Assembly (NCBI GenBank): GCA_902779865.1
Contig: CACZDG010000011.1
Coordinates: 1 to 41,509, forward strand
Direction: 5' to 3'
Origin: an uncultured bacterium
Lineage (GTDB): Bacteria > Verrucomicrobiota > Kiritimatiellia > RFP12 > UBA1067
Length of the DNA: 41,509 bases
Shown: positions 19,560 through 39,370 of the stretch, in pieces
How positions within the stretch are numbered: position 1 is the stretch's first letter
Layout of the letters: every line of letters starts with the position of its first letter
The notes under the pieces: model-generated
What the model saw: only the letters and a program-made list of their open reading frames with translations
Told to the model about the DNA's origin: nothing
The model's database searches: none
Translations under genes and position numbers: made by a program

Positions 19560-19583
19560 ATCGCAAATGAAAGGAAAATGAAA

Positions 19584-23636: not shown

Positions 23637-23737
23637 GGTTATCCTCCTTGTTTGGATTGTTGCGGCCTCCGGCGGGGGCACCCGCCCACTGGCCCGAAGG
23701 CTCGACGGCGAATATGATGCATAGTATGAATTAGTAC

Positions 23738-23766
23738 TTGAGATGGGAGCCATAATATGATAATAT
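23738..23766 (+). promoter_or_regulatory. candidate promoter of the InlB-repeat gene
   Basis: TTGAGA at 23738-23743, a 17-base spacer and TAATAT at 23761-23766. The -35 matches consensus well, the -10 less so. The predicted start is about 25 bases before ATG 23797, leaving little room for a ribosome site. Confidence 0.4.
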
Positions 23767-24649: not shown

Positions 24650-25429
24650 ATGCATAAACTCATGTTTGTGGAATTGAAGAGGCGACGGTTCTTGTTTGAG
24701 GAACTCGTGAAGCGCGATTTCAAGAAGAAATACAAGCGTACAATTCTTGGAATGGGGTGGAGTTTGCTCTCACCTCTTTTGATGCTTTTGGTTATGAAGG
24801 TCGCGTTTGAGCAGTTTTTCGGACGTACAGTGGATCATTACACTACCTATCTTTTTTGTGGGCTTTTGACGTTTAACTGGTTTGCAGAATCAACGAATGG
24901 CGGTATGAGGTCTTTGTTATGGAACGCGAGCATTTTCACCAAAGTGAATGTGCCTAAATATATGTTTCTTTTTTCCGTAAATGTTCAGGTGTTGTTAAAC
25001 TTTGCGTTGACTCTTTTGGTTTTTTTTGCCTTTTGCGCGATTGACCATGTGTCGTTTTCATGGCGGTTTCTCTGTCTTGTATTTCCAATAACTACAATGT
25101 TGTTTTTCTCTTTGGGCATTGGCATGGTGCTCTCTGCATTCTTCATTTTTTTCCGGGACATTGACTATATTTGGTCTCTCGCTCTGCAACTTCTCATGTA
25201 TGGATCGGCAATTTTCTACACGGTGGACAAATTCCCGCCATCAATGCAGTTCGCATTTTCTATGAACCCAGTTTATCGGCATATCGCCTATATCCGTGAA
25301 GTTGTTTTGGCAGGAACGATTCCGTCGCTTGAAACTCATCTAACGCTGATAGGATTTGCACTTGCTGCCTTCCTGGCAGGAATCTTTATGTATAGGCACT
25401 ACAACACGGAGTTTTTATATTATGTCTGA
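24650..25429 (+). CDS. wzm: ABC-2 type polysaccharide export permease (Wzm-like, 259 aa)
   Basis: The N-terminus (LFEELVKRDFKKKYKRTILGMGWSLLSPL) is typical of the polysaccharide/polyol-phosphate exporter permeases Wzm, KpsM and TagG: an amphipathic segment, a basic patch and the G-WSLL-P motif leading into about six transmembrane helices. The NPVYRHIAYIREV loop near residue 205 is also family-like. With the ATPase encoded next, it should move a lipid-linked glycan across the inner membrane. The GAGAGG at 24642-24647 is very close to ATG 24650, so initiation at the in-frame ATG 24662 is possible. The gene overlaps the ATPase gene by eight bases. Gene symbol is by family. Confidence 0.88.
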   Translation: MHKLMFVELKRRRFLFEELVKRDFKKKYKRTILGMGWSLLSPLLMLLVMKVAFEQFFGRTVDHYTTYLFCGLLTFNWFAESTNGGMRSLLWNASIFTKVNVPKYMFLFSVNVQVLLNFALTLLVFFAFCAIDHVSFSWRFLCLVFPITTMLFFSLGIGMVLSAFFIFFRDIDYIWSLALQLLMYGSAIFYTVDKFPPSMQFAFSMNPVYRHIAYIREVVLAGTIPSLETHLTLIGFALAAFLAGIFMYRHYNTEFLYYV

Positions 25430-26189
25430 CCAGAATATTATGTTATCGTGTCAAGGGGTGTCTATTCGATATAAGATAGGTGATCTCAAGGACATTGGCT
25501 TGAAGGAATGGGTTACGCGCAGATTGACAGGCCGATACAGCGTGGTTGATTTTTGGGCGGATAAAGATGTCAGTTTCACAATCAATGAAGGTGATATGCT
25601 CGGCATCATCGGTACGAACGGGGCTGGGAAATCTACCCTCCTAAAAGCCGTGTCGGGGATAATGGAGCCAACTGAGGGGTATATTGTCCGCAAAGGAAGA
25701 GTGGTGGCATTACTTGAGCTTGCAAGCGGATTCGATGGCGACTTGACGGTCACGGAAAATGCTTATCTGCGAGGTGCTATGCTCGGATACACACGCACGT
25801 TCATGGACGAGATGTATTCGCGCATAATTGACTTTGCCGAACTGAAGGGTTTTGAGGATCGCCCGTTCAAGCAGCTTTCGTCAGGCATGAAGTCGCGCCT
25901 TGCCTTTTCGATTGCTTCGCTCGTCAAACCTGAGATTCTGATTCTCGACGAAGTTCTTTCCGTTGGTGATGGTTCTTTTCGGGCGAAGAGTGAGGCTAAG
26001 ATGCGTGAAATCATTAAAGGAGGAGCAACGACGATTCTAGTTTCACATTCCATTGGTCAGATTCGGGCTATGTGCAGTAAGGTGCTTTGGTTGGATAAAG
26101 GTCGCCAAATTGAGTTCACCGATGATGTGAAAGGCTGTTGTGATAGATATGAGGCATTTTTGGCAGCACGAAAAAATGCTAAAGTTTAG
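25422..26189 (+). CDS. wzt: ABC transporter ATPase for polysaccharide export (Wzt-like, 255 aa)
   Basis: Walker A GTNGAGKST (64-72), signature SSGMKSR (near 155-161), Walker B ILILDEVLSVGD and a switch histidine in VSHSIGQ identify an ABC ATPase of the polysaccharide export subfamily. It energises transport with the permease encoded just upstream; the ATG at 25422 lies inside that gene's end. At 255 residues it lacks the C-terminal carbohydrate-binding domain of O9a-type Wzt proteins, so chain-terminal modification is probably not read by this protein. It resembles the short KpsT/TagH-like form. An in-frame ATG at 25356 is rejected since it would overlap the permease gene by 74 bases. Confidence 0.9.
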   Translation: MSDQNIMLSCQGVSIRYKIGDLKDIGLKEWVTRRLTGRYSVVDFWADKDVSFTINEGDMLGIIGTNGAGKSTLLKAVSGIMEPTEGYIVRKGRVVALLELASGFDGDLTVTENAYLRGAMLGYTRTFMDEMYSRIIDFAELKGFEDRPFKQLSSGMKSRLAFSIASLVKPEILILDEVLSVGDGSFRAKSEAKMREIIKGGATTILVSHSIGQIRAMCSKVLWLDKGRQIEFTDDVKGCCDRYEAFLAARKNAKV

Positions 26190-26191
26190 TC

Positions 26192-26220
26192 TTGTGTAAC
26201 GACGTTAAATAGGATATACT
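26192..26220 (+). promoter_or_regulatory. promoter of the amino-sugar/acyl-chain operon
   Basis: TTGTGT at 26192-26197, a 17-base spacer and TATACT at 26215-26220, starting three bases after the wzt stop codon. The predicted start near 26227 gives a leader of about 110 nt before ATG 26336. Confidence 0.55.
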
Positions 26221-26277
26221 ACCTCGCGTTATGACAAATATTTTTATATTTTTGAGTGAGTGTTTGTGCGCTGGATT

Positions 26278-26312
26278 CCCCCAAGTGCGGTTGGGGGGCA
26301 TTATTGTTTTTT
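26278..26312 (+). terminator. intrinsic terminator inside the operon leader (possible attenuator)
   Basis: CCCCCAA (26278-26284) pairs with TTGGGGG (26291-26297) around GTGCGG, followed nine bases later by six T (26307-26312). It lies downstream of the promoter at 26192-26220 and upstream of the ribosome site (AGGAG, 26324-26328). It could end read-through from wzt, or attenuate the downstream operon. The gap between stem and T-run weakens it. Confidence 0.45.
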
Positions 26313-26335
26313 AAGAAGGGGATAGGAGAGTTTTG

Positions 26336-27457
26336 ATGAAGAAATTCACAGACCCAATTTTGGTTACACGGCCATATTTCCCTGACTTAGAGAGTTTCAA
26401 GAGGGGGCTTGAGGAGATATGGCAAAATAAATGGCTTTCAAACAACGGTCCGCTTGTGCAGCGGTTGGAGGCGAAACTTGCGGAATATATGGGGACGCGT
26501 ATTAGTAACGTCTCGACGTTTGTAAATGGTACTCTTGCTTTGGAAATCGGTTTTCAGACAATGGGTCTTTTCGGAGCAGATGTCATAACAACGCCTTTTA
26601 CATTCGTTGCCACGGCACATGCCCTGAAGCGCATTGGAGCGACGCCGGTGTTCGCTGATATAGATGCGAAGTCCTTCTGCCTGTCTCCAGCCGAGGCGGA
26701 AAAGCACATTACTCACAGAACGCGGGCGATAGTCCCGGTGCATGTTTATGGACATCCCTGTGATGTGGAAGGATTTGAGCGTCTAGGGCGTAAGTGTGGT
26801 GTCAAAATAATATACGATGCGGCGCATGCTTTTGGTGTCAAAATTGGGGGTAAGGATATATCAGCATTTGGCGACATGTCAATGTTCTCGCTACATCCTA
26901 CGAAGCTATTTCATTCTGCAGAAGGTGGCGTCCTTGTGTTTAAGGATGCGAAGTTGCAGAGGAAAATGACTCAATTGCGCAACTTTGCGATCATGGACGA
27001 GGTGCGTTGCATAGACGTGGGAACGAACGCGAAGATGAACGAGATGTGCGCACTGATGGGGCTGGAATGTTTTTCGGTGATTGACAAACTCATTGCGTCC
27101 CGGGCGGAAATACATGCTGCATACGAGAAGGCGTTTGCAGACTGTCCAGAGGTTTATTTCCCAGATCCGGCAACGTTGCGTGGCGATCTGACTCCCAACT
27201 ACGCATATTGCCCGATCCTCGTGAAAGATTTTGACACGCGGGAGATGCTCTATGCCAAACTCAAGGAATGTAACATTTTTACGCGGCGTTATTTTTATCC
27301 GTTGTTGACCGACTTTGATCCGTACATCTACGGCAAGGACTCCTGCCCGGTGGCAAGGGAGATTGCAGGCAGGGTTCTGACCTTGCCAACGTATTATGGT
27401 CTTAGTGTTGACACGGCAACGGAAATTGCGGAAACTGTCAAGGAGATTCTGCGATGA
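26336..27457 (+). CDS. DegT/DnrJ/EryC1 sugar aminotransferase (373 aa)
   Basis: A PLP-dependent nucleotide-sugar aminotransferase. FVNGTLALE (62-70), TTPFTFVATAHAL (85-97), YDAAHAFG with D161, and the SLHPTKLFHSAEGG segment holding the Schiff-base lysine K190 follow the family order. This form of the lysine motif is like VioA/FdtB-type enzymes that aminate NDP-4-keto or 3-keto-6-deoxyhexoses, so a 4-amino-4,6-dideoxyhexose product is a fair guess. The keto-sugar-forming genes are not in the window. AGGAG at 26324-26328 supports ATG 26336 over TTG 26333. The last four bases overlap the acyltransferase gene, suggesting coupled translation. Confidence 0.9.
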   Translation: MKKFTDPILVTRPYFPDLESFKRGLEEIWQNKWLSNNGPLVQRLEAKLAEYMGTRISNVSTFVNGTLALEIGFQTMGLFGADVITTPFTFVATAHALKRIGATPVFADIDAKSFCLSPAEAEKHITHRTRAIVPVHVYGHPCDVEGFERLGRKCGVKIIYDAAHAFGVKIGGKDISAFGDMSMFSLHPTKLFHSAEGGVLVFKDAKLQRKMTQLRNFAIMDEVRCIDVGTNAKMNEMCALMGLECFSVIDKLIASRAEIHAAYEKAFADCPEVYFPDPATLRGDLTPNYAYCPILVKDFDTREMLYAKLKECNIFTRRYFYPLLTDFDPYIYGKDSCPVAREIAGRVLTLPTYYGLSVDTATEIAETVKEILR

Positions 27458-28104
27458 AGCATTTGATCATCATAGGCGCACGCGGATTCGGGCGCGAGAT
27501 GTTTGATTTCGCACACCATGTTAGGGCATTTCGCGAAGGGGCATTTGATTTTAAAGGCTTTCTCGACGACAAGGCAGATGCATTGGACGGTTATCCTTGC
27601 TCATTTGGCGAATATCCTCCAATCCTCGATTCTGTGGAAGCATACGTTCCCGAAAAGGATGATGTGTTCTTTTGTGCTTTGGGCGATGCCAAATGGCGTC
27701 GCATTTATGCCGATAAGATTCTTGCAAAGGGAGGGCGGTTTATTAGTCTTATTTCTGACGAAGCGCATATTGCGCCTGGTGCAAAGCTTGGACAGGGGGT
27801 TCAGATATGTTCGTGGACTTCTGTGTCCACCAACGTGTCGATAGGCGATTTCAGCGTGGTACACCCATATAGTAGTTTCGGACATGATGCGACGGTTGGT
27901 GCTAATTGCACGATAGAAAGTTATGTTTTCATGGGTGGTTATTCTGCAATTGGGGACGGAACGACAATGCATGTGCGTTCTTCGATTCTTCCCCACAAGA
28001 GGATAGGAAAGAACGTGGTCGTGGGTGTGGGAAGTGCGGTGATGCGGAACTTTGGAGATGGAGTTCATCTCTTCGGAAATCCTGCAAAGAAGATTGAGTT
28101 TTAG
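27454..28104 (+). CDS. PglD/NeuD-like sugar acyltransferase, left-handed beta-helix (216 aa)
   Basis: The N-terminal Rossmann-like part has GARGFGRE (8-15), the usual nucleotide-sugar binding loop of PglD/NeuD. From about residue 105 hexapeptide repeats build a left-handed beta-helix, with the probable catalytic His at 144 (SFGHDATVG) and a C-terminal GNPAKKI. These enzymes acylate the amino group (PglD, PerB) or a hydroxyl (NeuD) of a sugar. Overlapping the aminotransferase gene by ATGA, it most simply acylates that enzyme's amino-sugar product, with acetyl-CoA or with an acyl group made by the ACP/KAS genes that follow. The donor cannot be decided from sequence. Confidence 0.88.
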   Translation: MKHLIIIGARGFGREMFDFAHHVRAFREGAFDFKGFLDDKADALDGYPCSFGEYPPILDSVEAYVPEKDDVFFCALGDAKWRRIYADKILAKGGRFISLISDEAHIAPGAKLGQGVQICSWTSVSTNVSIGDFSVVHPYSSFGHDATVGANCTIESYVFMGGYSAIGDGTTMHVRSSILPHKRIGKNVVVGVGSAVMRNFGDGVHLFGNPAKKIEF

Positions 28105-28107
28105 GTG

Positions 28108-28126
28108 AAACAAAACAAAACAAAAC
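28108..28126. repeat. AAAAC short tandem repeat before the ACP gene
   Basis: Three AAAAC units plus a partial one lie between the acyltransferase stop codon and the ribosome site of the ACP gene at 28142. Length change would alter spacing between these genes. Confidence 0.7.
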
Positions 28127-28141
28127 ATGAAAGGAAAAGAA

Positions 28142-28375
28142 ATGGAAATCAATGAATTCATAGACAACCTTGCCGCTCAGTTTGATGAGACCTCGGCAGA
28201 TCAGCTCAAGCCCGAAACTGAATTTCGCAAGCTTGATGAGTGGAGTTCGCTCATAGCGCTTTCCATCATTGCTATGGCCGATGAAGAATACGGCGTAACG
28301 CTCAAGGGCGACGACATCAAGGGCGCGACAACGGTGCAAGATCTCTTTGACGTTGTAAACGCTAAGAAGGCGTAA
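28142..28375 (+). CDS. acyl carrier protein 1 (77 aa)
   Basis: A small acidic four-helix carrier protein. The phosphopantetheine site is in EWSSL at 33-37, most likely Ser36, where the usual DSL reads SSL. The following IIAMADEEYGVTL and TTVQDLFDVV match helices II to IV of ACPs. AAAGGA at 28130-28135 favours ATG 28142 over the in-frame ATG at 28127. It sits directly before a KAS III gene and is likely the cognate carrier for a short acyl chain. It is not the housekeeping ACP, to judge from the altered site and the context. Confidence 0.85.
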   Translation: MEINEFIDNLAAQFDETSADQLKPETEFRKLDEWSSLIALSIIAMADEEYGVTLKGDDIKGATTVQDLFDVVNAKKA

Positions 28376-28394
28376 CCCATACAGGAAGAACGAA

Positions 28395-29501
28395 ATGGCA
28401 TTCTGCGAATACAAAAACGTGCGTATCGCCGGCGTTGCGGCCGGCGTACCGCGCACGATTGCAAGTAACCTTACGCTCTCGGCTGAAAGAGGTGAAATTT
28501 CCGCCGACTATACACCGGAACAGTTCGTGGAGCTGACTGGTGTCAAGGAGCGTCGTTATTCGGATGTCTTGACGACGAGCGACCTTGGTTTTGCTGCGGC
28601 ATTAAGGCTGTTGGCAGACCTAGGTTGGGAGAAGTCTGATGTCGAGGCGATAATTTTTGTCTCGCAGACTGCCGACTATGCTTTGCCTGCGACCGCGTGT
28701 ATCCTTCAAGATAGGCTCGGCCTTTCCAAGGAATGTTTCGCGATGGACATTGTCCTTGGATGTAGCGGATGGGTTTACGGGCTTTCTGTAGCTGCCGCGA
28801 TGGCATCAAGCGGACAGTTCAAGAAGATTCTTCTTGTCGCAGGTGATGCGAAGCGCAGGGCACCGCAGAAGTTCGACCCTCTTTTTGGTTGTGCTGCGAC
28901 TGCGACGGCCGTAGAATACGCTGAGCGTTCAGATGGATTTCGTTTCCACGTTGGAACCGATGGTAGTGGCTATGACGCAATCATCATTCCTGATAGCGGA
29001 AGTCGTAATCAGGTGAAACCCGAGTCGTTTGAAATGCATGATTGGGAAGGTCGGCCTTACCACAACATGATGACGCACATGAAGGGCATGGACGTATTCT
29101 CATTCGGCATTACCACCGCGCCTAAGACGATAAAGAAGTTAGCAGAGCACTATGCGTTTGATTATCTTTCCTATGACTATTACCTGTTCCATCAAGCAAA
29201 CATGAAGATGAACAACATGATAGTCAAGAAGCTCAAGCTTGATCCGGCAAAGGTGCCGAGCGAGATGTATAATTTTGGCAACACGTCTTCCGCCTCAATT
29301 CCGCTTCTGATGGTGACGCAGATACGTGACCAGATTAATGGTCAGAACAAGAAATTCCTGTGTTGCGGTTTTGGCGTTGGGCTTTCGTGGGGTACCGTTG
29401 TGTTTGAGCAGGCAATTAAGGTTTCACCGCTTGTTGAGGTGGACGATTCCGATGTGAATTATGGGTATAAGCTTCCAGAAGGAGACTTGTCGAATGTCTG
29501 A
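28395..29501 (+). CDS. 3-oxoacyl-ACP synthase III-like enzyme 1 (368 aa)
   Basis: A FabH-like thiolase-fold ketosynthase with the Cys-His-Asn triad: C123 in VLGCSGWVYG, H266 in LFHQAN, and N296 in FGNTSSAS. It would condense an acyl-CoA primer with malonyl-ACP to a 3-oxoacyl-ACP. It is a paralogue of the enzyme at 30260, sharing GMDVFSF and the FHQAN/GN regions. The last 25 residues form an acidic tail absent from the paralogue. GGAAG at 28383-28387 precedes ATG 28395, 19 bases after the ACP gene. The context points to making a glycan acyl substituent, not membrane lipid. Confidence 0.88.
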   Translation: MAFCEYKNVRIAGVAAGVPRTIASNLTLSAERGEISADYTPEQFVELTGVKERRYSDVLTTSDLGFAAALRLLADLGWEKSDVEAIIFVSQTADYALPATACILQDRLGLSKECFAMDIVLGCSGWVYGLSVAAAMASSGQFKKILLVAGDAKRRAPQKFDPLFGCAATATAVEYAERSDGFRFHVGTDGSGYDAIIIPDSGSRNQVKPESFEMHDWEGRPYHNMMTHMKGMDVFSFGITTAPKTIKKLAEHYAFDYLSYDYYLFHQANMKMNNMIVKKLKLDPAKVPSEMYNFGNTSSASIPLLMVTQIRDQINGQNKKFLCCGFGVGLSWGTVVFEQAIKVSPLVEVDDSDVNYGYKLPEGDLSNV

Positions 29502-30249
29502 TTATAATCCTTTTTCGCTTGTGGGCAAGACGATACTAGTCACTGGGGCATCGTCTGGAATTGGGCAAGCCACTGCGGTGGAGTGTTCCCGCCTCGGAGC
29601 AAAACTTGTAGTTACAGGTCGCAACGAGGAAAGGCTCGTGGAAACTTTGAGCCGTCTCGATGGTGACGGCCATGTTTCGATTGCTGCTGAGTTAACGGAC
29701 GCAGAAGCTCTTAAGAGGCTTGTTGACAATTGTCCTTCCCTTGACGGTCTTGTTCTTTGTGCGGGGAGGGGCATGACACTTCCTTTCTTATTTTCCTCTA
29801 TTGACAAGTTCAAGACTGTGTTTGATGTTAATTTCAATTCAACCGTCGAATGTTTTAGGATGTTGGCCAAGGCCAAAAAACTTGGAAGGGGTTCTTCTGT
29901 TGTAATAATAGACTCTACTGGTGGAACTCCTAATGGACGATTCTCACCGGGCAACTGTATATACGGAGCTTCCAAGGCTGCTCTATGGTCTATAATGAAG
30001 TTTGCGGCGTTGGAGCTTGCTCCAAAGGGTATACGTGTCAACACGGTGAATCCTGCGATGGTTGAGACGCCTCTTATAAAGAGCGTTAACATAACAGATG
30101 AGCAGAAGGATCTTGACAGGAAGCGTTATCCGCTCGGTCGCTATGGTCGTCCCGAAGAAGTTGCTTATGGTATAATATATCTTCTTTCGGATGCGGCTGC
30201 ATGGGTCACTGGGCAATCGCTTATTCTTGATGGCGGTGTGACTATATGA
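29494..30249 (+). CDS. SDR-family 3-oxoacyl-ACP reductase-like (251 aa)
   Basis: A classical short-chain dehydrogenase. The cofactor motif TGASSGIG is at 17-24, the active site N113, S141, Y157, K161 is complete, and the end GQSLILDGG is typical of FabG-like members. The usual NNAG strand motif reads CAGRG here. R42-N-E after the second strand suggests NADPH. Between two ketosynthase genes, its likely job is reduction of 3-oxoacyl-ACP to the 3-hydroxyacyl form. AAGGAG at 29479-29484 fixes ATG 29494; the gene overlaps the preceding stop by eight bases. Confidence 0.88.
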   Translation: MSDYNPFSLVGKTILVTGASSGIGQATAVECSRLGAKLVVTGRNEERLVETLSRLDGDGHVSIAAELTDAEALKRLVDNCPSLDGLVLCAGRGMTLPFLFSSIDKFKTVFDVNFNSTVECFRMLAKAKKLGRGSSVVIIDSTGGTPNGRFSPGNCIYGASKAALWSIMKFAALELAPKGIRVNTVNPAMVETPLIKSVNITDEQKDLDRKRYPLGRYGRPEEVAYGIIYLLSDAAAWVTGQSLILDGGVTI

Positions 30250-30259
30250 GAATTGCGAT

Positions 30260-31318
30260 ATGGGCTATCTGACCACACGAAACGTAAAAATCGTAGGTCT
30301 TTCTGCTTGTGTTCCCAAGCGGATCGAGGAGAATATCGATTTGCCGTTCTTTGTCGATCAGGCGGAGGCGGAGAAGGTTGTCGCTTCGACCGGCATTGCC
30401 CGCAAGCGCGTCTGCGAGGATGGTGTTACGGGCAGCGATCTTGCGAAGCCCGCGATTGTACGGCTTCTTGCCGATCTTGGATGGTCGGCGGATTCCGTCG
30501 ATTGTCTCTTCTATGTCAGCATGACGCGCGACTATATCGCGCCGCAAACGGCATGCATTCTTCAACACGAACTTGGTCTGAGTGAAAGTGCATTTGTCAT
30601 GGATCTTCCGCTCGGCTGTTCCGGATGGGTGTACGGCATGAGCGTTGCCGGATCGATGATGCAGACAGGGCAAATGAAGCGGGGACTCGTCATTTGCGCA
30701 GAGACAAATACAAAGAACCGTAACAAGAAGGATCGAGGTGTGCGTCCGCTTTTTGGTGACGCGGCAACTGTCACGGCTCTTGAATATGACGTCTCGGCCA
30801 AGCCGATGAACTTCGTTCTTAACGTTGATGGTAGTGGTTGGAAGGCTGTACACATGCCATACGGCGGTATGCGTAATCCAACGACTCCTGAATGCCTTGT
30901 GGAGGTTGAGATTGAACCGGGAGTCGTCCGAAAAGGTACGGATATGATTGTCAACGGAATGGATGTGTTCTCGTTTGCCATTAAGCGTCCGCCCCAGCAG
31001 TTAAAGGATTTAGTTGAGCATTTCAATGTTGATCTTGCGTCTGTCGATTATTTGCTGTTACATCAGGCAAACAAGTTTATTGACGAGAAGATTCGTCGTT
31101 CACTCAAACTGCCGCCGGAGAAAGTGCCTTACTCCATGCAGGATTTTGGCAATGTCACGAACGCATCGATTCCTCTGGTGATGGTGACGCAGATTGGCGA
31201 GGTATTGCGGAATGGCGCAAAGCATTGTCTCGCTTGTGGATTTGGTGTGGGGCTTGCCTGGGGCAGTGTTGAGTTCTATGTCAAGAATGCGATCGTATCT
31301 GATTTAATGGAGGTGTAA
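30260..31318 (+). CDS. 3-oxoacyl-ACP synthase III-like enzyme 2 (352 aa)
   Basis: Second FabH-like ketosynthase with an intact triad: C120 in PLGCSGWVYG, H268 in LLHQAN, N298 in FGNVTNAS. It is clearly paralogous to the 28395 gene, most strongly in the catalytic core, and less so in the 130-residue middle part that shapes the acyl pocket, so it may use another primer or perform a second condensation. No strong ribosome site precedes ATG 30260; translation may be coupled to the reductase gene ten bases upstream. ACP 2 follows after three bases. Confidence 0.87.
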   Translation: MGYLTTRNVKIVGLSACVPKRIEENIDLPFFVDQAEAEKVVASTGIARKRVCEDGVTGSDLAKPAIVRLLADLGWSADSVDCLFYVSMTRDYIAPQTACILQHELGLSESAFVMDLPLGCSGWVYGMSVAGSMMQTGQMKRGLVICAETNTKNRNKKDRGVRPLFGDAATVTALEYDVSAKPMNFVLNVDGSGWKAVHMPYGGMRNPTTPECLVEVEIEPGVVRKGTDMIVNGMDVFSFAIKRPPQQLKDLVEHFNVDLASVDYLLLHQANKFIDEKIRRSLKLPPEKVPYSMQDFGNVTNASIPLVMVTQIGEVLRNGAKHCLACGFGVGLAWGSVEFYVKNAIVSDLMEV

Positions 31319-31321
31319 TCC

Positions 31322-31546
31322 ATGTCGAACAAGGAAAAACTTATTGATATATTTGTGACAACGTTTGGATTGACGCCGGCGGAAGCCGAAGGCGCGGTTT
31401 TCAAGAATACGCCTGCTTGGGATTCCGTTGGGCATGTGAACCTTATGAATGCCATCGAAGAGGGATTTGGCATTTCTTTGGAACCGGATGACATTCTTGA
31501 TTGTAAGAGTTTTGCGCAGGCAGAAACCATGATTGCCAAATATTGA
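31322..31546 (+). CDS. acyl carrier protein 2 (74 aa)
   Basis: A carrier protein with the canonical motif: W-D34-S35-V, Ser35 being the expected phosphopantetheine site, followed by the helix NLMNAIEEGFGISL. GGAGG at 31309-31313 lies eight bases before ATG 31322. It is different in sequence from ACP 1, so the two ketosynthases may each have their own carrier. The next gene encodes a membrane acyltransferase and the one after that an acyl-activating enzyme, either of which could use this carrier. Confidence 0.87.
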   Translation: MSNKEKLIDIFVTTFGLTPAEAEGAVFKNTPAWDSVGHVNLMNAIEEGFGISLEPDDILDCKSFAQAETMIAKY

Positions 31547-31553
31547 TTTGTCT

Positions 31554-32594
31554 ATGAAGCGTGACACATCAATAGACATAGCTCGCGGCATTGCGATAAT
31601 CGCTGTGGTTGTCGGTCATCTATGGTGTTGGCATCCTGAATATATTTCTATTAGAAAGTATGTCTATTGTTTTCACATGCCGCTATTTTTCATGATAGCA
31701 GGAATGTGTTTGAGAATGGATACTACTGGTTTGAAGCAGTTTGTGTTACGCAAGTGCAAAAGACTTATTGTCCCGTATGTTGTATTTGGAATATCCGCTT
31801 TGATACTTTATACTATTGCCGTCGCTTTTTTGTATAATCAGTCTAGCAGTGCTTTGATGACGTTTGCGACTAAAAGATTCTTTGGGTTTTTATATGGAAC
31901 GACATGTCCAGTTAAACTTAGCGAAAGTTTTACTGTTTGCGAAGCTGGGATGATATGGTTTTTGCTTGCGTTGTTTATTTCCTTTGTTATTGTCGCTACA
32001 TTGGGAAAGAATGTACATGGCTGGATAATTATAACGGTATTGGCAATCTTGGCTGTTGTTTTAAAGTGGATAGGATGTCCTTTACTCCCATTTAGTTTAC
32101 AGGTTGCGTGCATTGGGGCGTTGTTTGTTGGGGTTGGAATGCTATTAAATAAATTGCTTAGTAAGATAAGTGATAGGCTTGTCTGCAAAGTTTTGTTGGT
32201 GTTATTAGGATGTTGTGTATATACATTGGTGGTTCTGTGCGGTTTTAGCCAGAATATTGCCAGAATAGAGTTTGATAGCGCATTAGTCCCTGTTTGTTCG
32301 TTGGTAATTAGTGCTGGTGTCATAGGGCTTTCAGGGTTCTTGAAGTATGTTCCGTGTTTATGCCCGTTATTGTCGTTCATTGGTAGGCATACCCTGATTA
32401 TATATGGGATTCATCATATATATATATCTGGCGGTCTTGCTTCAATTGCTTATCGTTGCGTTAAACAATTCCCAAGCAGTCGCGTTGCATTATTGGTTGT
32501 AGAGTTACTGTTTCCATTTGTGATAGGACTGGCTTGGGGTTTCTTCGCAGAGAAAGTTTACAAGGTAAAAAGGAGTGTAGAATGTACAGACTAG
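31554..32594 (+). CDS. integral membrane acyltransferase, acyltransferase 3 family (346 aa)
   Basis: The start SIDIARGIAIIAVVVGH, with His22 at the end of the first helix, is the hallmark of acyltransferase 3 / OafA-like enzymes. About ten hydrophobic helices follow, with FHMPLFFMIAG and the late GRHTLIIYGIHH segment, both typical. Such enzymes O-acylate membrane-associated glycans, usually from acetyl-CoA or a related donor. ATG 31554 is used, seven bases after the ACP 2 stop; a TTG at 31533 is possible but would only add seven residues. It is among the most AT-rich genes of the window and may come from another source. It overlaps the ligase gene by 13 bases. Confidence 0.87.
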   Translation: MKRDTSIDIARGIAIIAVVVGHLWCWHPEYISIRKYVYCFHMPLFFMIAGMCLRMDTTGLKQFVLRKCKRLIVPYVVFGISALILYTIAVAFLYNQSSSALMTFATKRFFGFLYGTTCPVKLSESFTVCEAGMIWFLLALFISFVIVATLGKNVHGWIIITVLAILAVVLKWIGCPLLPFSLQVACIGALFVGVGMLLNKLLSKISDRLVCKVLLVLLGCCVYTLVVLCGFSQNIARIEFDSALVPVCSLVISAGVIGLSGFLKYVPCLCPLLSFIGRHTLIIYGIHHIYISGGLASIAYRCVKQFPSSRVALLVVELLFPFVIGLAWGFFAEKVYKVKRSVECTD

Positions 32595-33922
32595 ATTTTG
32601 AGGGTATTGCCGTCGTCTCTGATGACGGACGTAAATTAACGTATCCAGAACTCGCGAATGCTTGTGATAAGTGGGCGAGAAATGTCCCTCGTAGATCGCT
32701 TGTGTTTTTGCTGGTTAAGAATAATCTCAATTCTTTGATCGCGTACGTTGGTGCGCTCCGCAATGGCATTGTGCCACTGATGCTTGATGCCGATATCAAC
32801 CGTGATTCGCTTGATCGGTTTCTTGATGCGTATCGTCCGTTGGCTATTTATAACGGGAAAGAAGACAGTTGGACGAAAGTGAACGAAGACAGTCCGCCGT
32901 TAAATGATGAATTGGCGTTGTTGCTGACAACATCCGGCTCGACAGGATCGCCGAAGCTTGTAAGGCAGTCGTATAAGAACATCGAGGCGAATACGGCGTC
33001 AATTATTGAGTATTTAAAACTTGACGCGACGGAAAAGGCGATTACGACTTTGCCAATGAATTATACATACGGGCTTTCAATAATCAACTCGCATTTGAAT
33101 TGTGGTGCAACGATGTTGATGACGGCTCGGGGTATCATGGAGCGAGAGTTCTGGACATTCTTTAACGAACATGGTGCAACGAGTTTCGGCGGAGTTCCTT
33201 ACACGTATGAGATGCTTGACAGGCTTATGTTCTTCCGGCGCAAGTTGCCGACTCTGCGGACGATGACTCAGGCAGGAGGAAAGATTCTTGTGCCGCTTCA
33301 TGAAAAGTTTGCAAAGTATGCCGCAGAAAATGGCAAGAACTTCGTTGTGATGTATGGTCAGTGCGAAGCTACCGCACGTATGTCCTATCTGCCGCCAGAT
33401 AGGGCGCTCGACAAGATCGGTTCCATGGGGATTGTCATTCCTGGCGGAAAATTCTCATTGATAGATGTGGATGGCAAGGAGATTACTGAGCCGGAGGTGA
33501 CAGGTGAACTGGTCTATAAAGGGGATAACGTAACACTCGGTTATGCTGAAAATGCGGGAGATCTCGCCAAGGGAGATGAGCGCGGTGGGGTGTTGGTGAC
33601 CGGGGATATGGCGAAGTTTGACGAAGATGGGTTTTACTATATCGTTGGTCGTAAGAAGCGTTTTCTAAAGATATTCGGAAATCGTGTCAATCTTGATGAG
33701 ACGGAGCGTCTTATCAAGGCGAATTTCCCAAATCTTGACTGCGCTTGCGGCGGTGTCGATGACAAGATGAAGATATTCGTGACCGATGCGTCATTTTCGC
33801 AACAAATTCGTGATTTTGTGGTGGATAAAACACATCTCAATTTCACGGCATTTGAACTTGTCGTGATTCCTGTGATCCCCAAAAACGACAGCGGCAAAAC
33901 GCTTTATTCGGAACTCCACTGA
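32582..33922 (+). CDS. AMP-forming acyl-activating enzyme, ANL superfamily (446 aa)
   Basis: All core adenylation motifs are visible: the P-loop-like TTSGSTGSPK (near 115-125), GQCEATARMS, TGDMAKFDEDG, the hinge GRKKRFLKIFGNRVNLDE and the C-terminal catalytic Lys439 in NDSGKTL. The enzyme should adenylate a carboxylic acid and pass it to CoA or to phosphopantetheine on one of the two ACPs encoded nearby. It is shorter than typical acyl-CoA ligases, with a small N-terminal part. It may load a hydroxy acid or fatty acid starter for the locus. AAGGAG at 32570-32575 supports ATG 32582 inside the end of the acyltransferase gene; the upstream in-frame ATG at 32534 is rejected. Confidence 0.88.
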   Translation: MYRLDFEGIAVVSDDGRKLTYPELANACDKWARNVPRRSLVFLLVKNNLNSLIAYVGALRNGIVPLMLDADINRDSLDRFLDAYRPLAIYNGKEDSWTKVNEDSPPLNDELALLLTTSGSTGSPKLVRQSYKNIEANTASIIEYLKLDATEKAITTLPMNYTYGLSIINSHLNCGATMLMTARGIMEREFWTFFNEHGATSFGGVPYTYEMLDRLMFFRRKLPTLRTMTQAGGKILVPLHEKFAKYAAENGKNFVVMYGQCEATARMSYLPPDRALDKIGSMGIVIPGGKFSLIDVDGKEITEPEVTGELVYKGDNVTLGYAENAGDLAKGDERGGVLVTGDMAKFDEDGFYYIVGRKKRFLKIFGNRVNLDETERLIKANFPNLDCACGGVDDKMKIFVTDASFSQQIRDFVVDKTHLNFTAFELVVIPVIPKNDSGKTLYSELH

Positions 33923-33934
33923 GAGATATCCATT

Positions 33935-36900
33935 ATGCGAATACTTCACCTCATAAGTGACCCTACTGCCGTGGTGCGTCTTTCACGTGCCTGTGACGGA
34001 ATGCATGGGTTTGACAATGCATACGTTCTGTTGTGGCCATCCCTCTATCATGTGTCAGAGTGTGTAAAGACTGAGGGGCGGGTGAGGATTGTGATCCCTG
34101 GTTCTGCAGAGTATCGTTCTCTTTTGCGTGCGCCTGCCGATTTGATATGGGTTCATGGGGCATACGAGCGTGCAATTCGTTTCGTACTGGCGTACAAAGG
34201 TGATGCTAGAATCGCTTGGAGTGCGCTAGGTTCCGATTATGTTGAGTATATTGGGGCTGAAAAACGGAGGATAAAGCCTAGAATCGCGGCTTTATTCGCA
34301 CGCCATAAGCTTGCGTGGTTGTTGCCGTCGGAGCATTTGAGATTTTTTCGCCGAGTAGATTTCTTTTCGGTGAGAAATAGGCGCGACAAGGTCGCATTGA
34401 GACGAATCCTTCCTGCTACCGTCCGTCGCGTGCCATTTTTCTATGATTCCGTGTATGTTAACGAACATGAGGTAAATTTTATAGCAAAAATATTGGACCC
34501 ATGGACTGGTGCCAAGGCGTTGGGTGGGGCAGGAATAATCCGTTTTGATGCCAATGGTGGTGTCGGGACGATGCCGGATATCTATTGTGAAGATGCTGCA
34601 GTACCGCGTTTGCCGGCCAATGCATTTGTACGTGATGGCTATACGTTCGCTGGATGGTCGTTGTTTCGTACAGGGACTGTCATGTGGGGTGACCGTATGG
34701 TTGCTTCGGGCATGCCTTTCGTCAATGGTACGGCTAGATTGTATGCGTGTTGGACAGGTTTTAGGTGTGCTGTTAGGTTTCATGCCAATGGTGGGGTCGG
34801 AACAATACCAGTTTTTTATTTTGTGTATGGTACGCCAACTCCATTACCGGCTAACACTTTTGCCAGGACAGGATTCATATTCAAGGGGTGGTCGCAGATG
34901 GCCAATGGTAAAGTTCAATGGGAAGATAGGGCTTCTATATGTAATCCTGCAGCCCCCAAAAGAAGTGCCGATCTATTTGCCATTTGGTCGAATGAGCTAC
35001 CTGATGGGGCAATGCTTCCTACAGGATGCTATGGTGTGCGCTTCCACAAAAATGATGGTACGGAGCAGGCTGTGGTATATTGTTTCAAGTATAAAGCAGC
35101 TTCAAATATCCCGACTTTGTCCAAGCTGGGGTGGGAGGTTTCTAAGTGTGATTTTCTAGGATGGTCACTCTCTTTGGCTGGTGGTAAAATCGTGTATCAA
35201 GATGGAGATCGAATTTATGCACCAGTGCGGGCTGGCCAGATTATGGATCTGTATGCGATTAGGTGTTTGTCAAATGGTTGTACAGATGAACATGTTGTCA
35301 AGGTCAATTTTGATACTAATGGGGGCAGTGGGGTAATGAAGCCTCTTACGATTGCGGCATGGAAATCCGCAACATTGCCTAAATGCCTTTTTGAGAGACG
35401 ATTCTTTGCTGATTCGTACACGTTTAACGGATGGTCTTTGACTTCTGATGGGAAACCGTTGTGGCACGATGGTGACGAGGTCGTTCTGCCGCCAATAAAA
35501 AGTGGGGAGATTGTTTTCTATGCAACATGGGCGGGTTTCCCTTGTAAGATTATTTTTGATAGAAATGGTGGAATTGGGTTCATGGACGATTTGGAGTTTG
35601 TTTATGGCAAAGCGATGAGACTACCGATGTGTTCTTATACGAAGCAGTTATATGTTTTTGATGGGTGGGCAACTTCGCCTCAGGCAGAAGTAATATGGAA
35701 AGATGGTGGTTGGATCAAGGAACCGCCATTTCGTGAAGGGAAAATTATTCTTTTTGCTAAATGGCGTGGTGCACCTGTGAAAGTTACGTTTGATGCTAAT
35801 GGCGGTGTGGGACAGATGGATGATTTTATCTTTGACTATAATCCCAACATAAAACTTCCTAAAGCGGTCTTTTCTAAGCCGTTGAAAGTTTGTGCTGGAT
35901 GGTCGTATTCACCACGAGGTCCAATAGTAATATCAAATGGTGGGATTATTGGCAATGCTCCGTTCAAACGCAACACTTTGACTTTGTATGCTCAATGGCG
36001 AAATCGAACCGAGGAATTGGGCAGAAATGGTAGGGTTAATAATAAAATCGCAGCCAAAGGGCGTTTAAAAGAAAGAGTTCGCATATTGCACATCGTTGGA
36101 GCTAGGTTGTTTGTAGATGGCATAATAACTACTTTTGAAAGTTTTCCAGAAATAAACAACCATTATATACTTGTGACTGGAGAGACGTTATATTCACCTG
36201 AGGGGATTCGGCAGCGAAATCACCTTGAAGTTGTGCATAGACATAGTTCAAGGCATAAAGAGATATTGAGTACGAGATATGACGTAGTATGGGTGCATGG
36301 AGCAGCTCAGGATCAGATTCGTTATTGTTTGGAATGTAGGCATAATCCCATTGTTGTATGGAGTGTTTGGGGATTTGATTACGTTGATTATGTAAAGAAT
36401 TGGCTTTATGGGCCAAGGACGACTTTGCAGTGGGCAATTCACGAACCTTTCAGGATTGTTTTTAAGCGTTTGGCTCTTTGGATTATTGACTTACTAGGTA
36501 TTAGCAGGCTCTCAAATTCGGAGCATGGTAGATTCTTCCGTAAGGTAGATTTCTTTTCAGTTGTCTTGCCAGAGGAAGAGCAAATTGTACGTAGGCTCAT
36601 TGGCGAAAAACCACGTAGGATATTTTTCGCGTATCTCCAGAATTTTAGAGAATCAGATACTGTTTACAAACCTGTCGACCTCTCCAGCAAGGGGGTTTGG
36701 GTTGGAAATTCTGCCACTCTCACCAACAATTACTGGGATGTTTTTCCGTTGATAGCCAAAACACCAGATCGTGAGGTTGTTGCATCTTTGGTGTATGGAA
36801 CTGACGGACGAACTCGTGGACCGTATGCTGAACCTATAGAGAATTTTGGGCGGCGGATTTTTGGTGATCGTTTCACATCAATCTCTACGTTTCTACCATT

Positions 36901-37246
36901 GTCTGAATATGTAGCGTTGATGGATCGTTGTTCGGCTTTTGTCTTTGGACATCGTCGTCAGCAGTCCATAGGGAACATTTTGTTGGCGTTGCGCCGTGGA
37001 GGATGCGTATTTCTTGATCGTCGTAATCCCGCTTATGCTTTTTGTTTGCGACGGAAGTTCAAAGTGTACACGTTGGAGGACCTTAACAGGGGAATTGATA
37101 CTGTGACTTCTGAGTTTCGACCATTTCAACGTGAGAATATGAAACGAGCGGCATCCTATACAACCGTTAAAGAAACGCTTGCAAAGATACATAAGTCTAT
37201 ACGTCGAGTGCAGAATGAGTGTGAGTTGCGGCGTAAGGAAGTATGA
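33935..37246 (+). CDS. GT56-like glycosyltransferase with six internal InlB-type repeats (1,103 aa)
   Basis: Three parts can be read. Residues 1-190 resemble the N-terminal lobe of a Fuc4NAc transferase (MRILHLI, IWVHGAYERAIRF, ALGSDYVEY, RFFRRVDFFSV). Residues 201-690 are six InlB-B/Flg_new repeats of about 75-90 residues (FDANGG...GW...LYAxW). Residues 715-1103 are a full GT56-type transferase (VRILHIV, VWVHGAAQDQIRY, WGFDYVDY, RFFRKVDFFSV, then GNS at 924-926 with a TNNY, and RRQQSIGN at 1007-1014), about the length of WecF alone. The first part repeats the N-lobe of the third but lacks the donor-binding lobe. No signal peptide or membrane helix is evident, so a cytoplasmic or membrane-face enzyme is likely, transferring a 4-amino-dideoxyhexose to a lipid-linked acceptor. 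This layout is not one I know. Confidence 0.8.
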   Translation: MRILHLISDPTAVVRLSRACDGMHGFDNAYVLLWPSLYHVSECVKTEGRVRIVIPGSAEYRSLLRAPADLIWVHGAYERAIRFVLAYKGDARIAWSALGSDYVEYIGAEKRRIKPRIAALFARHKLAWLLPSEHLRFFRRVDFFSVRNRRDKVALRRILPATVRRVPFFYDSVYVNEHEVNFIAKILDPWTGAKALGGAGIIRFDANGGVGTMPDIYCEDAAVPRLPANAFVRDGYTFAGWSLFRTGTVMWGDRMVASGMPFVNGTARLYACWTGFRCAVRFHANGGVGTIPVFYFVYGTPTPLPANTFARTGFIFKGWSQMANGKVQWEDRASICNPAAPKRSADLFAIWSNELPDGAMLPTGCYGVRFHKNDGTEQAVVYCFKYKAASNIPTLSKLGWEVSKCDFLGWSLSLAGGKIVYQDGDRIYAPVRAGQIMDLYAIRCLSNGCTDEHVVKVNFDTNGGSGVMKPLTIAAWKSATLPKCLFERRFFADSYTFNGWSLTSDGKPLWHDGDEVVLPPIKSGEIVFYATWAGFPCKIIFDRNGGIGFMDDLEFVYGKAMRLPMCSYTKQLYVFDGWATSPQAEVIWKDGGWIKEPPFREGKIILFAKWRGAPVKVTFDANGGVGQMDDFIFDYNPNIKLPKAVFSKPLKVCAGWSYSPRGPIVISNGGIIGNAPFKRNTLTLYAQWRNRTEELGRNGRVNNKIAAKGRLKERVRILHIVGARLFVDGIITTFESFPEINNHYILVTGETLYSPEGIRQRNHLEVVHRHSSRHKEILSTRYDVVWVHGAAQDQIRYCLECRHNPIVVWSVWGFDYVDYVKNWLYGPRTTLQWAIHEPFRIVFKRLALWIIDLLGISRLSNSEHGRFFRKVDFFSVVLPEEEQIVRRLIGEKPRRIFFAYLQNFRESDTVYKPVDLSSKGVWVGNSATLTNNYWDVFPLIAKTPDREVVASLVYGTDGRTRGPYAEPIENFGRRIFGDRFTSISTFLPLSEYVALMDRCSAFVFGHRRQQSIGNILLALRRGGCVFLDRRNPAYAFCLRRKFKVYTLEDLNRGIDTVTSEFRPFQRENMKRAASYTTVKETLAKIHKSIRRVQNECELRRKEV
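34535..36004 (+). repeat. array of six InlB-B-type protein repeats
   Basis: Repeats begin at about residues 201, 277, 355, 444, 534 and 612 of the enzyme. Repeats 1, 2, 5 and 6 share ANGG or RNGG starts. Repeat 3 is a distinct subtype (GCYGVRF, KNDG, FKY, GWE, YQDGD, DLYAI) that also opens the next gene. DNA of the repeats is well diverged, so the array is old. Confidence 0.8.
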
Positions 37247-37248
37247 CA

Positions 37249-38346
37249 ATGGGTGATATTGAACTTACGAATGGCTTCTACGGTATTCGGTTTAACAGTA
37301 ATGACGGGCGTAATCTAGTTAAGATTGTTAGGTTTAAGTATGGTGTCCATACGGCATTACCTACTATTGTTGATGATTTCGGTTGGGAGCGTAGTGGGTA
37401 TGTTTTCGTTGGTTGGTCAGTGGCGAAACAGGGTGTGATTGCATATCGTGATGGGTCGCTGGCTTGTAGAGGTACTGTGCCAGGTAGGATATTTGATGTG
37501 TATGCCATCTGGAATCCAGATGACCCGTCTTACAAACCCCTTGTGAATTATTCGCATATTTCTCCCTATTGGGCTGAGCCGATTTATAAGGTAGAGGGAA
37601 TGAAGTATGTCGGAACCGAAGTGCAGGAGCTTTGTCTTGGCTCTTCGCACGCGCATTATGGGTATTATGCAGAAGATAACTGTTATAATCTTGGCGACCC
37701 GTCTTGTGATGCGTATTATTCATTTGAGATTCTTAAATACTGGGTGCCAAAGTTGACGAAACTTAGACGAATAGTGTATTTTTACGATATATTCACACCT
37801 GGTAATGTCATTGATCGTGGTAGTGAGGGTTTTAGACGCATATGTTGGCTTCATTTCTATAGAATGTGCCCTCAGCTTGCGGACTGTCGACAGGATACGA
37901 CAATTTTGGAGTCATACACCGATTGTGAAGAAGTTTTTTATCGTAGTGTTGATATGCACATGGCTACGGTTCCCATTGGGTATCGTGGCAACGCGATTAA
38001 GAGAAAGCCCATGCCGAACGTTGACCTTGCTAAGCGAGTGGCAATGCACCTTAAGCTTAATCAAGGTGATTGCGATAGGTACGTAAGCGAAATGATAGAT
38101 TATTGTCGTGATCGGAAGTTGGAGCTGATTATTGTTGTACCGCCGCTTCGATCCGATTATGTTCGGGAACTCCCACAGGGATTCAAATTACAGCCTCCGC
38201 AAGGGGCGCGGATAATCAATTACATGGATTCCGGGTTATTCGTCGATGATGATTTCATCGATTGCGATCATCTTACCGAAGACGGAGCAAAGAAGCTTAC
38301 AAGACTATTGCACGAGGAGGTTGGGGAGGTGCGGCCTAATGCCTGA
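37249..38346 (+). CDS. SGNH-hydrolase-like protein with an N-terminal InlB-type repeat (365 aa)
   Basis: Residues 1-90 form one InlB-type repeat (GFYGIRF, NDG, FKYG, GWERSGYVFVGWS, DVYAIW). From about 120 on the protein looks like an SGNH/GDSL-type domain: G131-S-S-H134 as the possible nucleophile motif, LIIVVPPLRSDY near 290-305, and D338-C-D-H341 followed by LTEDGAKKL as the Asp-His motif. Similar proteins occur in glycan loci and may add or remove acyl groups. No signal peptide. AAGGAAG at 37235-37241 is one base from ATG 37243 but seven from ATG 37249, so the latter is preferred. It lies next to the GT56-repeat gene, and overlaps the GT2 gene by eight bases. Confidence 0.7.
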   Translation: MGDIELTNGFYGIRFNSNDGRNLVKIVRFKYGVHTALPTIVDDFGWERSGYVFVGWSVAKQGVIAYRDGSLACRGTVPGRIFDVYAIWNPDDPSYKPLVNYSHISPYWAEPIYKVEGMKYVGTEVQELCLGSSHAHYGYYAEDNCYNLGDPSCDAYYSFEILKYWVPKLTKLRRIVYFYDIFTPGNVIDRGSEGFRRICWLHFYRMCPQLADCRQDTTILESYTDCEEVFYRSVDMHMATVPIGYRGNAIKRKPMPNVDLAKRVAMHLKLNQGDCDRYVSEMIDYCRDRKLELIIVVPPLRSDYVRELPQGFKLQPPQGARIINYMDSGLFVDDDFIDCDHLTEDGAKKLTRLLHEEVGEVRPNA

Positions 38347-39370
38347 AGCTCCCTTGGTCTCAGTTGCGATGCTGGCTTTTCAGCACGAGCGTTTTATTGC
38401 GCAGGCGATTGAGGGTGTATTGTCGCAACAGACGCGATTTCGCTATGAGCTGATTATTGGGGAGGATGGTTCGTCAGATGCGACACTCGCTATTTGTCGC
38501 ATGTATGAAAAACAACATTCGGATTGCGTTATTGTAATCTCAACCGGTGAGAGGATTTCAACCGCAGTGGAGTCACGGAATTTTCTTCGCACATGCTTGC
38601 GGTGTCGAGGTAAGTACGTGGCGTTTTGCGAAGGGGACGATTACTGGACGGATCCTCTTAAATTGCAGAAGCAGGTTGACTACATGGAGTCGCATCCAGA
38701 CTGCACCATTTCTTTCCACCCTGTTCTTGAGCGCTGGGAAGACGGTGGTGGTGTGGATGGTGAAAGTCCCGCCAATTGGCGGCGGTTCTTCGTTAAACCC
38801 CCTTCGTTTGATGAGCTTCTTCATGGTAACTTCATACGAACTTGCAGCGTGATGTACCGCTGGAATCCTGACGGGAAGCTGTTTCTTGAATTCCCGCTGA
38901 AAGAGCTCCCGGGGGACTGGATACTTCACTTAATGCATGCACGGAATGGGGTGATTGGTTTTCTTCCCGAGGTCATGGCGGTATATCGCAGGCATATTGG
39001 TAGTTTGTGGTCGCGTAATTGGGAATCAGAAGAATGGTTTAGAAAGTTTGGGTATAGGGTAGCCCTTTTTTATAGGCGGTTGGAACGCGATTATGGTGTG
39101 GACCGCCATGTTGAAATTCGGCGATTGGTACTGGCATCTCTTGCCGTGGCACCGCAAAAAGAAGAACTGCTCGCCATAATGCGTCCATCTGCTCTATGGG
39201 TTCGATGCGCTTGGCTACTTGCGTTTTGCTATGGCGTTGCAGGTTCGCTTGCGCCCAAACGTTTTCGTGATGGGATCCGTCGTAGGCATTTCACATGGTC
39301 GCTTATCGATAGATGTGGGAAAGACATAGTGAAACATCTTTCTACAGTATCGCCATCCGTGGCGCTGTAA
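38339..39370 (+). CDS. GT2 family glycosyltransferase (343 aa)
   Basis: A GT-A fold transferase. LVSVAMLAFQHERFIAQAI begins the Rossmann-like part, GEDGSSD (41-47) is the nucleotide-site loop, and EGDDYW (98-103) holds the metal-binding DxD-type acids, followed by DPLKLQKQVDYM. It should add a sugar from an NDP donor to the growing glycan on the cytoplasmic side. GGAGG at 38325-38329 supports ATG 38339, inside the end of the SGNH gene; the upstream ATG at 38246 is rejected. It is the last gene of the long operon; the promoter of the next gene follows after ten bases. Confidence 0.9.
   Translation: MPEAPLVSVAMLAFQHERFIAQAIEGVLSQQTRFRYELIIGEDGSSDATLAICRMYEKQHSDCVIVISTGERISTAVESRNFLRTCLRCRGKYVAFCEGDDYWTDPLKLQKQVDYMESHPDCTISFHPVLERWEDGGGVDGESPANWRRFFVKPPSFDELLHGNFIRTCSVMYRWNPDGKLFLEFPLKELPGDWILHLMHARNGVIGFLPEVMAVYRRHIGSLWSRNWESEEWFRKFGYRVALFYRRLERDYGVDRHVEIRRLVLASLAVAPQKEELLAIMRPSALWVRCAWLLAFCYGVAGSLAPKRFRDGIRRRHFTWSLIDRCGKDIVKHLSTVSPSVAL

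Follow-up and report, generated by a model that had tools for sequence, protein, structure and literature searches.

The window analysed here is a contig of 41,509 nt (CACZDG010000011.1, assembly GCA_902779865.1) from the lineage Verrucomicrobiota; Kiritimatiellia; RFP12; UBA1067, and the element in question is a gene whose product resembles the glycosyltransferases of family GT56 and carries an internal array of Flg_new/InlB-type repeats. The gene is a single open reading frame (ORF) encoding 1103 amino acids, with its ATG at 33935 and its stop codon at 37244-37246. The domain order of the protein is a GT56-like N-lobe copy, six repeats and a complete GT56-like enzyme, and its parts are the following:

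33935..37246, plus strand: GT56-like glycosyltransferase gene with internal Flg_new repeat array (Pfam, NCBIfam; orthologue at L066:16091-19258)
33935..34459, plus strand: N-terminal copy of the glycosyltransferase N-lobe (residues 1-175), probably non-catalytic (similarity to the second lobe; Trp of W-G-x-D replaced by Leu; no donor lobe after it)
34535..34759, plus strand: repeat 1 (residues 201-275), clade of the glycosyltransferase array (Pfam, repeat tree)
34769..34993, plus strand: repeat 2 (residues 279-353), of no settled place in the repeat tree (Pfam, repeat tree)
35033..35269, plus strand: repeat 3 (residues 367-445), second subtype (FxKNDG), without counterpart in the relative's array (comparison, repeat tree)
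35300..35536, plus strand: repeat 4 (residues 456-534), clade of the glycosyltransferase array, on a long branch that makes its place unsure (Pfam, repeat tree)
35546..35770, plus strand: repeat 5 (residues 538-612), clade of the glycosyltransferase array, best match the relative's fourth repeat at 53% (comparison, repeat tree)
35780..36004, plus strand: repeat 6 (residues 616-690), clade of the glycosyltransferase array, best match the relative's fifth repeat at 44% (comparison, repeat tree)
36074..37243, plus strand: complete GT56-like enzyme (residues 714-1103; Pfam, NCBIfam, alignment with relatives)

The enzyme part comprises an N-lobe (residues ~714-895) and a donor lobe (~896-1103) with the motifs VGNSA..NN, YG and RQQ.xGN. 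The coordinates and architecture proposed for 33935..37246 in the initial annotation agreed with the exact ORF, the Pfam matches and an orthologue of the same order, and Pfam stretches together with the lobe alignment placed the array between two lobe copies, as had been claimed. This orthologue was found in a second species of the genus, genome G009 (RUG14841; the prefix presumably denotes rumen uncultured genomes), and encodes 1055 amino acids with an N-lobe, five repeats and the enzyme. The enzyme parts of the two fused proteins are ~60% identical, and neither species has a frameshift or stop in the fused gene. An assembly join of two genes, which had been named as a possible artefact, is ruled out by the same order in a second species; the fusion of glycosyltransferase and repeats is real.

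The lobe spanning residues 1 to ~175 of the window protein aligned with the lobe behind the repeats at E 2e-21 and 28% identity, and the same two copies in the relative's protein aligned at E 2e-34 and 37% identity. With significant alignments in both proteins, the words shared by the two lobes are not a product of chance. An N-lobe tree of ten rows united the four copies in one clade (support 98/99), with the N-copies as sisters (95/92) and the enzyme copies likewise grouped (87/86), and a pairing of the window's own two lobe copies was rejected by the approximately unbiased test (p-AU 0.002). Alignments and tree thus bore out the duplication of the N-lobe, and the topology, together with the rejected pairing, indicates that it was a single event older than the species split. 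The Trp of the W-G-x-D motif was present in all eight complete enzymes aligned, two of which (L120 and L121) are so distant that their alignment at this position is unsure, and was replaced by Leu in both N-copies. Because this Trp is lost and no donor lobe lies behind it, the N-copy is probably non-catalytic.

The GT56 profile (PF07429) matched residues 921-1038 with an E-value of 1e-5 and 25.3 bits against a cut-off of 25, and the relative's protein reached 11.5 bits, under the cut-off; judged by Pfam score, GT56 membership of the window enzyme is marginal. WecF is the TDP-Fuc4NAc: lipid II Fuc4NAc transferase, and NCBIfam models of WecF type matched the window protein at up to E 1.5e-23, with the best score of 83.5 bits missing the WecF equivalog cut-off of 457 bits. 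According to the alignment, the enzyme is two-lobed and its donor-lobe motifs are common to six standalone relatives, among which PF07429 covered both lobes in two, most of the length in one and mainly the donor lobe in three. The same profile gave no match to the N-lobe copy, which is known by its similarity to the second lobe; of the claim that both ends belong to GT56, the C-terminal half therefore stood, at a marginal score, and the N-terminal half found no direct profile match. No relative with a solved structure was found by sequence for either the enzyme profile or the array. The enzyme profile retrieved no relative from viral contigs and two distant matches from plasmids.

Matches to the enzyme profile occurred in 4 of 162 genomes drawn from the order, 5 of 346 from the class and 7 of 387 from the phylum, the last draw list not containing G009. 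In seven other matching genomes the enzyme lies in open frames of 379-636 amino acids; six of these are standalone enzymes (378-419 amino acids), and the seventh is the 636-residue frame of G393. The search for further proteins combining GT56 with PF09479-type repeats, which the initial annotation had suggested, added one genome, G009, so that 2 of the 17 genus genomes listed hold the fusion; among the remaining 15, several drafts are incomplete, so that absence there is not proven.

The array itself consists of six stretches matching Flg_new (PF09479), with a whole-protein E-value of 6e-35. From chosen loci we extracted 159 distinct repeats (at least 50 aligned residues, E <1e-3), and a repeat tree was computed from 57 of them, namely the 12 repeats of the two glycosyltransferase genes and of the overlapping SGNH-like gene downstream, plus the best 12 matches of each; the tree has few columns, and 23 of its 54 branches are left open. 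One clade (100/96) holds 9 of the 11 glycosyltransferase-array repeats of the two species, which suggests that the array grew largely within this gene. A second clade (24 rows, 100/99) unites repeat 3 with the repeat of the SGNH-like gene; its remaining members belong to G008, G010, G080 and G109, mostly to signal-bearing ORFs. All five repeats of the relative's array are of the first subtype. Repeat 3 and the SGNH repeat fall into this common clade; a sister relation of glycosyltransferase and SGNH repeats was neither supported nor rejected (p-AU 0.4), and each of the two best matches repeats in proteins of other genomes. A recent transfer of repeats from other parts of the genome was rejected: no DNA-level tandem array was found in the repeat region and no other DNA match was present in the genome at the sensitivity used, so the array is not recent.

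To judge the location of the protein, we examined the frame upstream of the gene and the hydrophobicity of the N-terminus. Only four codons separate the ATG from the preceding in-frame stop, so that an upstream signal peptide has no room, and the N-terminus of the window protein scored 1.04 on a hydrophobicity scan with a cut of 1.7. This score is home-made, with a cut chosen after the values were known, and it considered every possible start codon within the first 130 residues, which biases it towards signal calls. The scan detected neither an N-terminal signal peptide nor a membrane anchor of the kind carried by secreted repeat adhesins, and the relative likewise lacks a segment of signal strength. 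A hidden signal peptide in the window protein was thus rejected on upstream frame and scan, and the absence of a signal peptide that the initial annotation had assumed was upheld.

A survey of Flg_new ORFs placed this absence in context. The 123 profile matches in the window genome and 41 in G009 collapsed into 28 and 16 ORFs (one listed match per ORF), from which 4 and 8, truncated on their 5' side by a contig end, were excluded. A hydrophobic start segment was present in 20 of 24 intact repeat ORFs in the window genome and 7 of 8 in G009 (27/32 together), so that such repeats are otherwise mostly on signal-bearing proteins, in line with the earlier claim that they are known from surface and secreted proteins. 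The segment was missing in five: both glycosyltransferase proteins, the SGNH protein, a 2545-residue ORF (score 1.50) and a frame of 255 residues next to an IS30-like gene. The composition of the repeats differed as well. Of the 12 repeats in the glycosyltransferase and SGNH proteins, 11 contain Cys, compared with 19 of the 49 remaining repeats in the two genomes (p 0.001); the median net charges are +4 and -4, respectively (p 4e-5). In this comparison, independence does not hold among repeats from a single protein, and 5'-cut ORFs contributed to the comparison set. The Cys contrast stayed when all 147 other repeats were used (55/147, p 0.0003). As supporting evidence only, these biases suit a non-secreted place, and the transferase is apparently cytoplasmic.

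Elsewhere in the window, a 244-residue ORF at 23797-24531 carries two Flg_new repeats and no signal peptide that we could find. It may be what is left, at the 3' end, of a secreted repeat protein that an insertion interrupted, and it lies beside an ORF that we take to be an IS30-like transposase:

22242-23753, minus strand: IS30-like transposase-type ORF (weak helix-turn-helix matches only)

Repeat-rich contigs from other genomes (L098-L117) were tried as a source of more enzyme fusions, many of which were expected. Instead, 32 of their 34 repeat ORFs with an intact 5' end had a hydrophobic start of at least 1.7, the two others being 626 and 165 amino acids long, and ten of these repeat ORFs scanned by Pfam were BspA-type leucine-rich-repeat proteins, peptidases or repeats alone. 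At L098, L100, L101, L102, L104, L105, L110, L113, L115 and L117 (genomes G080, G109 and G010), unrelated signal-bearing proteins terminate in Flg_new-type repeats, usually three and otherwise two. The kinds with such repeats at or near the C-terminus include BspA-type leucine-rich-repeat proteins and C10 and M12-like peptidases, as if the repeats were a shared surface-anchoring tag, and other proteins of the same L098-L117 loci carry a tail behind them. At L098:14918-15943, L104:4666-5775, L106:12238-13107 and L049 (835-residue ORF) we noted small proteins in which hydrophobic N-terminal segments lead into at least three Flg_new-type repeats; by eye, the sequence V(L/V)Y(G/A)G(S/T)K precedes the repeats in the L098, L104 and L049 proteins, and the L106 start was seen in part. 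These small proteins may be membrane partners of the secreted repeat proteins.

The fused gene belongs to a putative polysaccharide cluster spanning 24650-39370, which begins with an ATP-binding cassette (ABC) exporter. Around the gene, the cluster contains:

24650..26189, plus strand: ABC exporter permease and ATPase, galactan/teichoic acid type (domain and family matches)
26333..33922, plus strand: DegT aminotransferase, NeuD/PglD-type acyltransferase, two KAS III, SDR, two small acyl-carrier-like ORFs (by eye), acyltransferase 3 and AMP ligase (Pfam, NCBIfam)
37243..38346, plus strand: SGNH-like gene with one Flg_new-type repeat (residues 14-92) and an SGNH-like domain, overlapping the glycosyltransferase gene by 4 bases
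38246..39370, plus strand: family 2 glycosyltransferase, which closes the cluster (Pfam)

BLAST found counterparts in G009, in unchanged order, for 12 of the 14 cluster genes of the window; for acyltransferase 3 and the SGNH gene it found none in the stretch of the G009 cluster that was covered. The exporter ATPase (277 amino acids) matched ABC/AAA-type domains alone, with teichoic acid and galactan types as best matches, and the relative's ATPase (284 amino acids) has ABC-type domains alone. In the exporters of ruler-type pathways (WbdD class), a cap-binding extension of the ATPase recognises terminated chains. Neither a kinase nor a methyltransferase domain was found among the scanned window cluster proteins. 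DegT best matched DesI and other 4-aminotransferases, below their cut-offs, and is followed by the NeuD/PglD-type acyltransferase; the closest standalone GT56-like gene is also near a DegT-like ORF, recognised by eye. From these sequences the cluster likely makes an acylated 4-amino-deoxy sugar donor. The DegT aminotransferase, NeuD-type acyltransferase, two KAS III, SDR, acyl-carrier-like ORFs and AMP ligase, all shared with G009 where both small acyl-carrier-like ORFs are kept, likely form a route to an unusual acyl group on the 4-amino sugar. Conservation among the shared genes is lowest for DegT (36%) and lies at 46-76% for the rest, and the G009 cluster has an extra sugar-phosphate transferase, NDP-hexose 2,3-dehydratase and Gfo/Idh reductase, because of which the sugar may differ between the two species.

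The name of the SGNH gene is based on a motif reading and on one relative whose Pfam match stayed below threshold (E 0.013), the window domain itself having matched no family. The hydrophobicity scan found no signal peptide in its product. The two best relatives of the domain, in G124 and G108, are without a repeat, and no SGNH-domain match in G009 was among the matches listed. Upstream of the cluster, the window also contains a 3844-residue ORF with GDSL-like and laminin-G-like domains (1130-12664), located upstream of an alpha-L-fucosidase gene at 19578-21299.

Our leading though tentative reading is that of a cytoplasmic GT56-like transferase which serves an ABC-exported polysaccharide cluster and has an internal repeat arm that spaces or docks. 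The acceptor-side (N) lobe would have been duplicated, and the Flg_new/InlB array, a module of the lineage's secreted proteins, would have come between the copies. The chemistry, probably the transfer of an N-acylated 4-amino-deoxy sugar, would be carried out by the C-terminal enzyme, and the N-terminal copy would probably be a non-catalytic binding or pairing lobe. We infer for the array a function as spacer or scaffold, an arm that would keep lobe and enzyme apart and offer surfaces to partners in a complex for assembly and export, perhaps including the SGNH protein of the next gene. Several observations weigh against this reading. Among the genomes searched, the fusion was confined to the window genome and G009. 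Repeat number differs between the two species (6 versus 5), and a clear one-to-one match between the arrays exists for the last two repeats only, both of which would equally suit a loosely constrained linker. The N-copy is the fastest evolving and least constrained part (between-species ratio of amino-acid-changing to silent changes, pN/pS, 0.59, next to 0.41-0.55 for the array and 0.29-0.30 for the enzyme, figures that are a guide only as silent sites are saturated between the two species), and the window copy is without one loop, as fits decay. The hydrophobicity scan is permissive, with 4 of 27 presumed cytosolic control ORFs passing it, and the charge contrast faded against all 147 other repeats (+4 versus +2, p 0.09).

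The low constraint on the N-copy, its missing loop and the change in repeat number would also be expected if recombination had put the lineage's abundant repeats, 123 matches in this genome, into a gene that tolerated them as a linker while its N-copy decayed; the neighbouring gene took up a repeat too. We regard such neutral accretion as unlikely, since the order outlived a divergence to ~60% enzyme identity with the frame intact, amino-acid changes in the array stay below silent ones, and the array, which matches no further DNA in the genome at the sensitivity used, did not arrive recently. Alternatively, the array could bind repeat-bearing partners, the SGNH-like protein first, in a transferase-esterase complex. 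The overlapping SGNH gene has a single second-subtype repeat, as does the window array, the relative has first-subtype repeats only and no SGNH counterpart in its covered cluster, and the proximity of membrane-type proteins with three repeats to secreted proteins ending in three repeats suits like-with-like contact. This pairing is, however, a single co-occurrence in two species, its two repeats are unsupported as sisters and each best matches other genomes' proteins, and the relative keeps its array without such a partner in the covered stretch, which makes docking by like repeats improbable in our view. A molecular ruler appears quite unlikely. Here the array would set the distance from an acceptor-holding N-copy to the catalytic enzyme and thereby restrict modification to glycans of a certain length, in analogy to the coiled coil of WbdD and WbbB. 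The gene's cluster includes an ABC exporter in both species, and a string of folded repeats flanked by two related lobes could plausibly form a rod; the two ATPases, in contrast, have no room for a cap-binding extension, the scanned cluster proteins lack kinase and methyltransferase domains, the sequence gives no sign that the enzyme terminates chains, and repeat number varies between species. The accessible parts of PMC11231755 describe, for several such pathways, a terminator that sits at a coiled-coil end and fixes chain length, and the analogy is based on these parts and on PMC3482155. Somewhat more freely, and by analogy again, an adhesin repeat module could have moved to the cytoplasm, with a pseudo-acceptor lobe on a repeat rod positioning the growing glycan for the catalytic lobe pair, or setting its length; we consider this doubtful.

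An array in an apparently cytoplasmic enzyme shows that the counts of adhesion factors which genome papers base on Flg_new/InlB repeats (PMC9723798, PMC7883539) can mislead, and that the fold is open to reuse. If the array does position or measure a glycan, it would represent a new way of controlling length or assembly in ABC-exported polysaccharides, a repeat-based counterpart of coiled-coil rulers whose module number could be changed one repeat at a time. The literature on these repeats and on glycosyltransferases, mostly open-access and available in part, yielded no description of a glycosyltransferase fused to InlB B-repeats/Flg_new.

As far as the accessible text of PMC11231755 goes, the protein resembles terminators with a coiled-coil ruler (WbdD, WbbB and K. 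pneumoniae O4 ORF7) in its ABC-exporter pathway and in an inserted element that separates a catalytic unit from another module. It differs from them in that Flg_new repeats separate the modules, no capping enzyme was identified and the ATPase is without an extension. Its six stretches match the profile of Flg_new/InlB B-repeat proteins (PF09479, TIGR02543), which are treated as adhesion factors in the accessible parts of PMC9723798 and PMC7883539; the other repeat ORFs with intact starts in the two genomes are mostly signal-bearing, whereas here the repeats are inside an enzyme without a recognisable signal peptide. With GT56 and WecF it shares the donor-lobe motifs, a match just above the Pfam cut-off and 4-amino-sugar genes nearby. 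In contrast to them it has an additional N-lobe copy and a repeat array and scores far under the WecF equivalog cut-offs, and the NNH-type motif, which has His in the six standalone relatives, has Tyr in both fused proteins.

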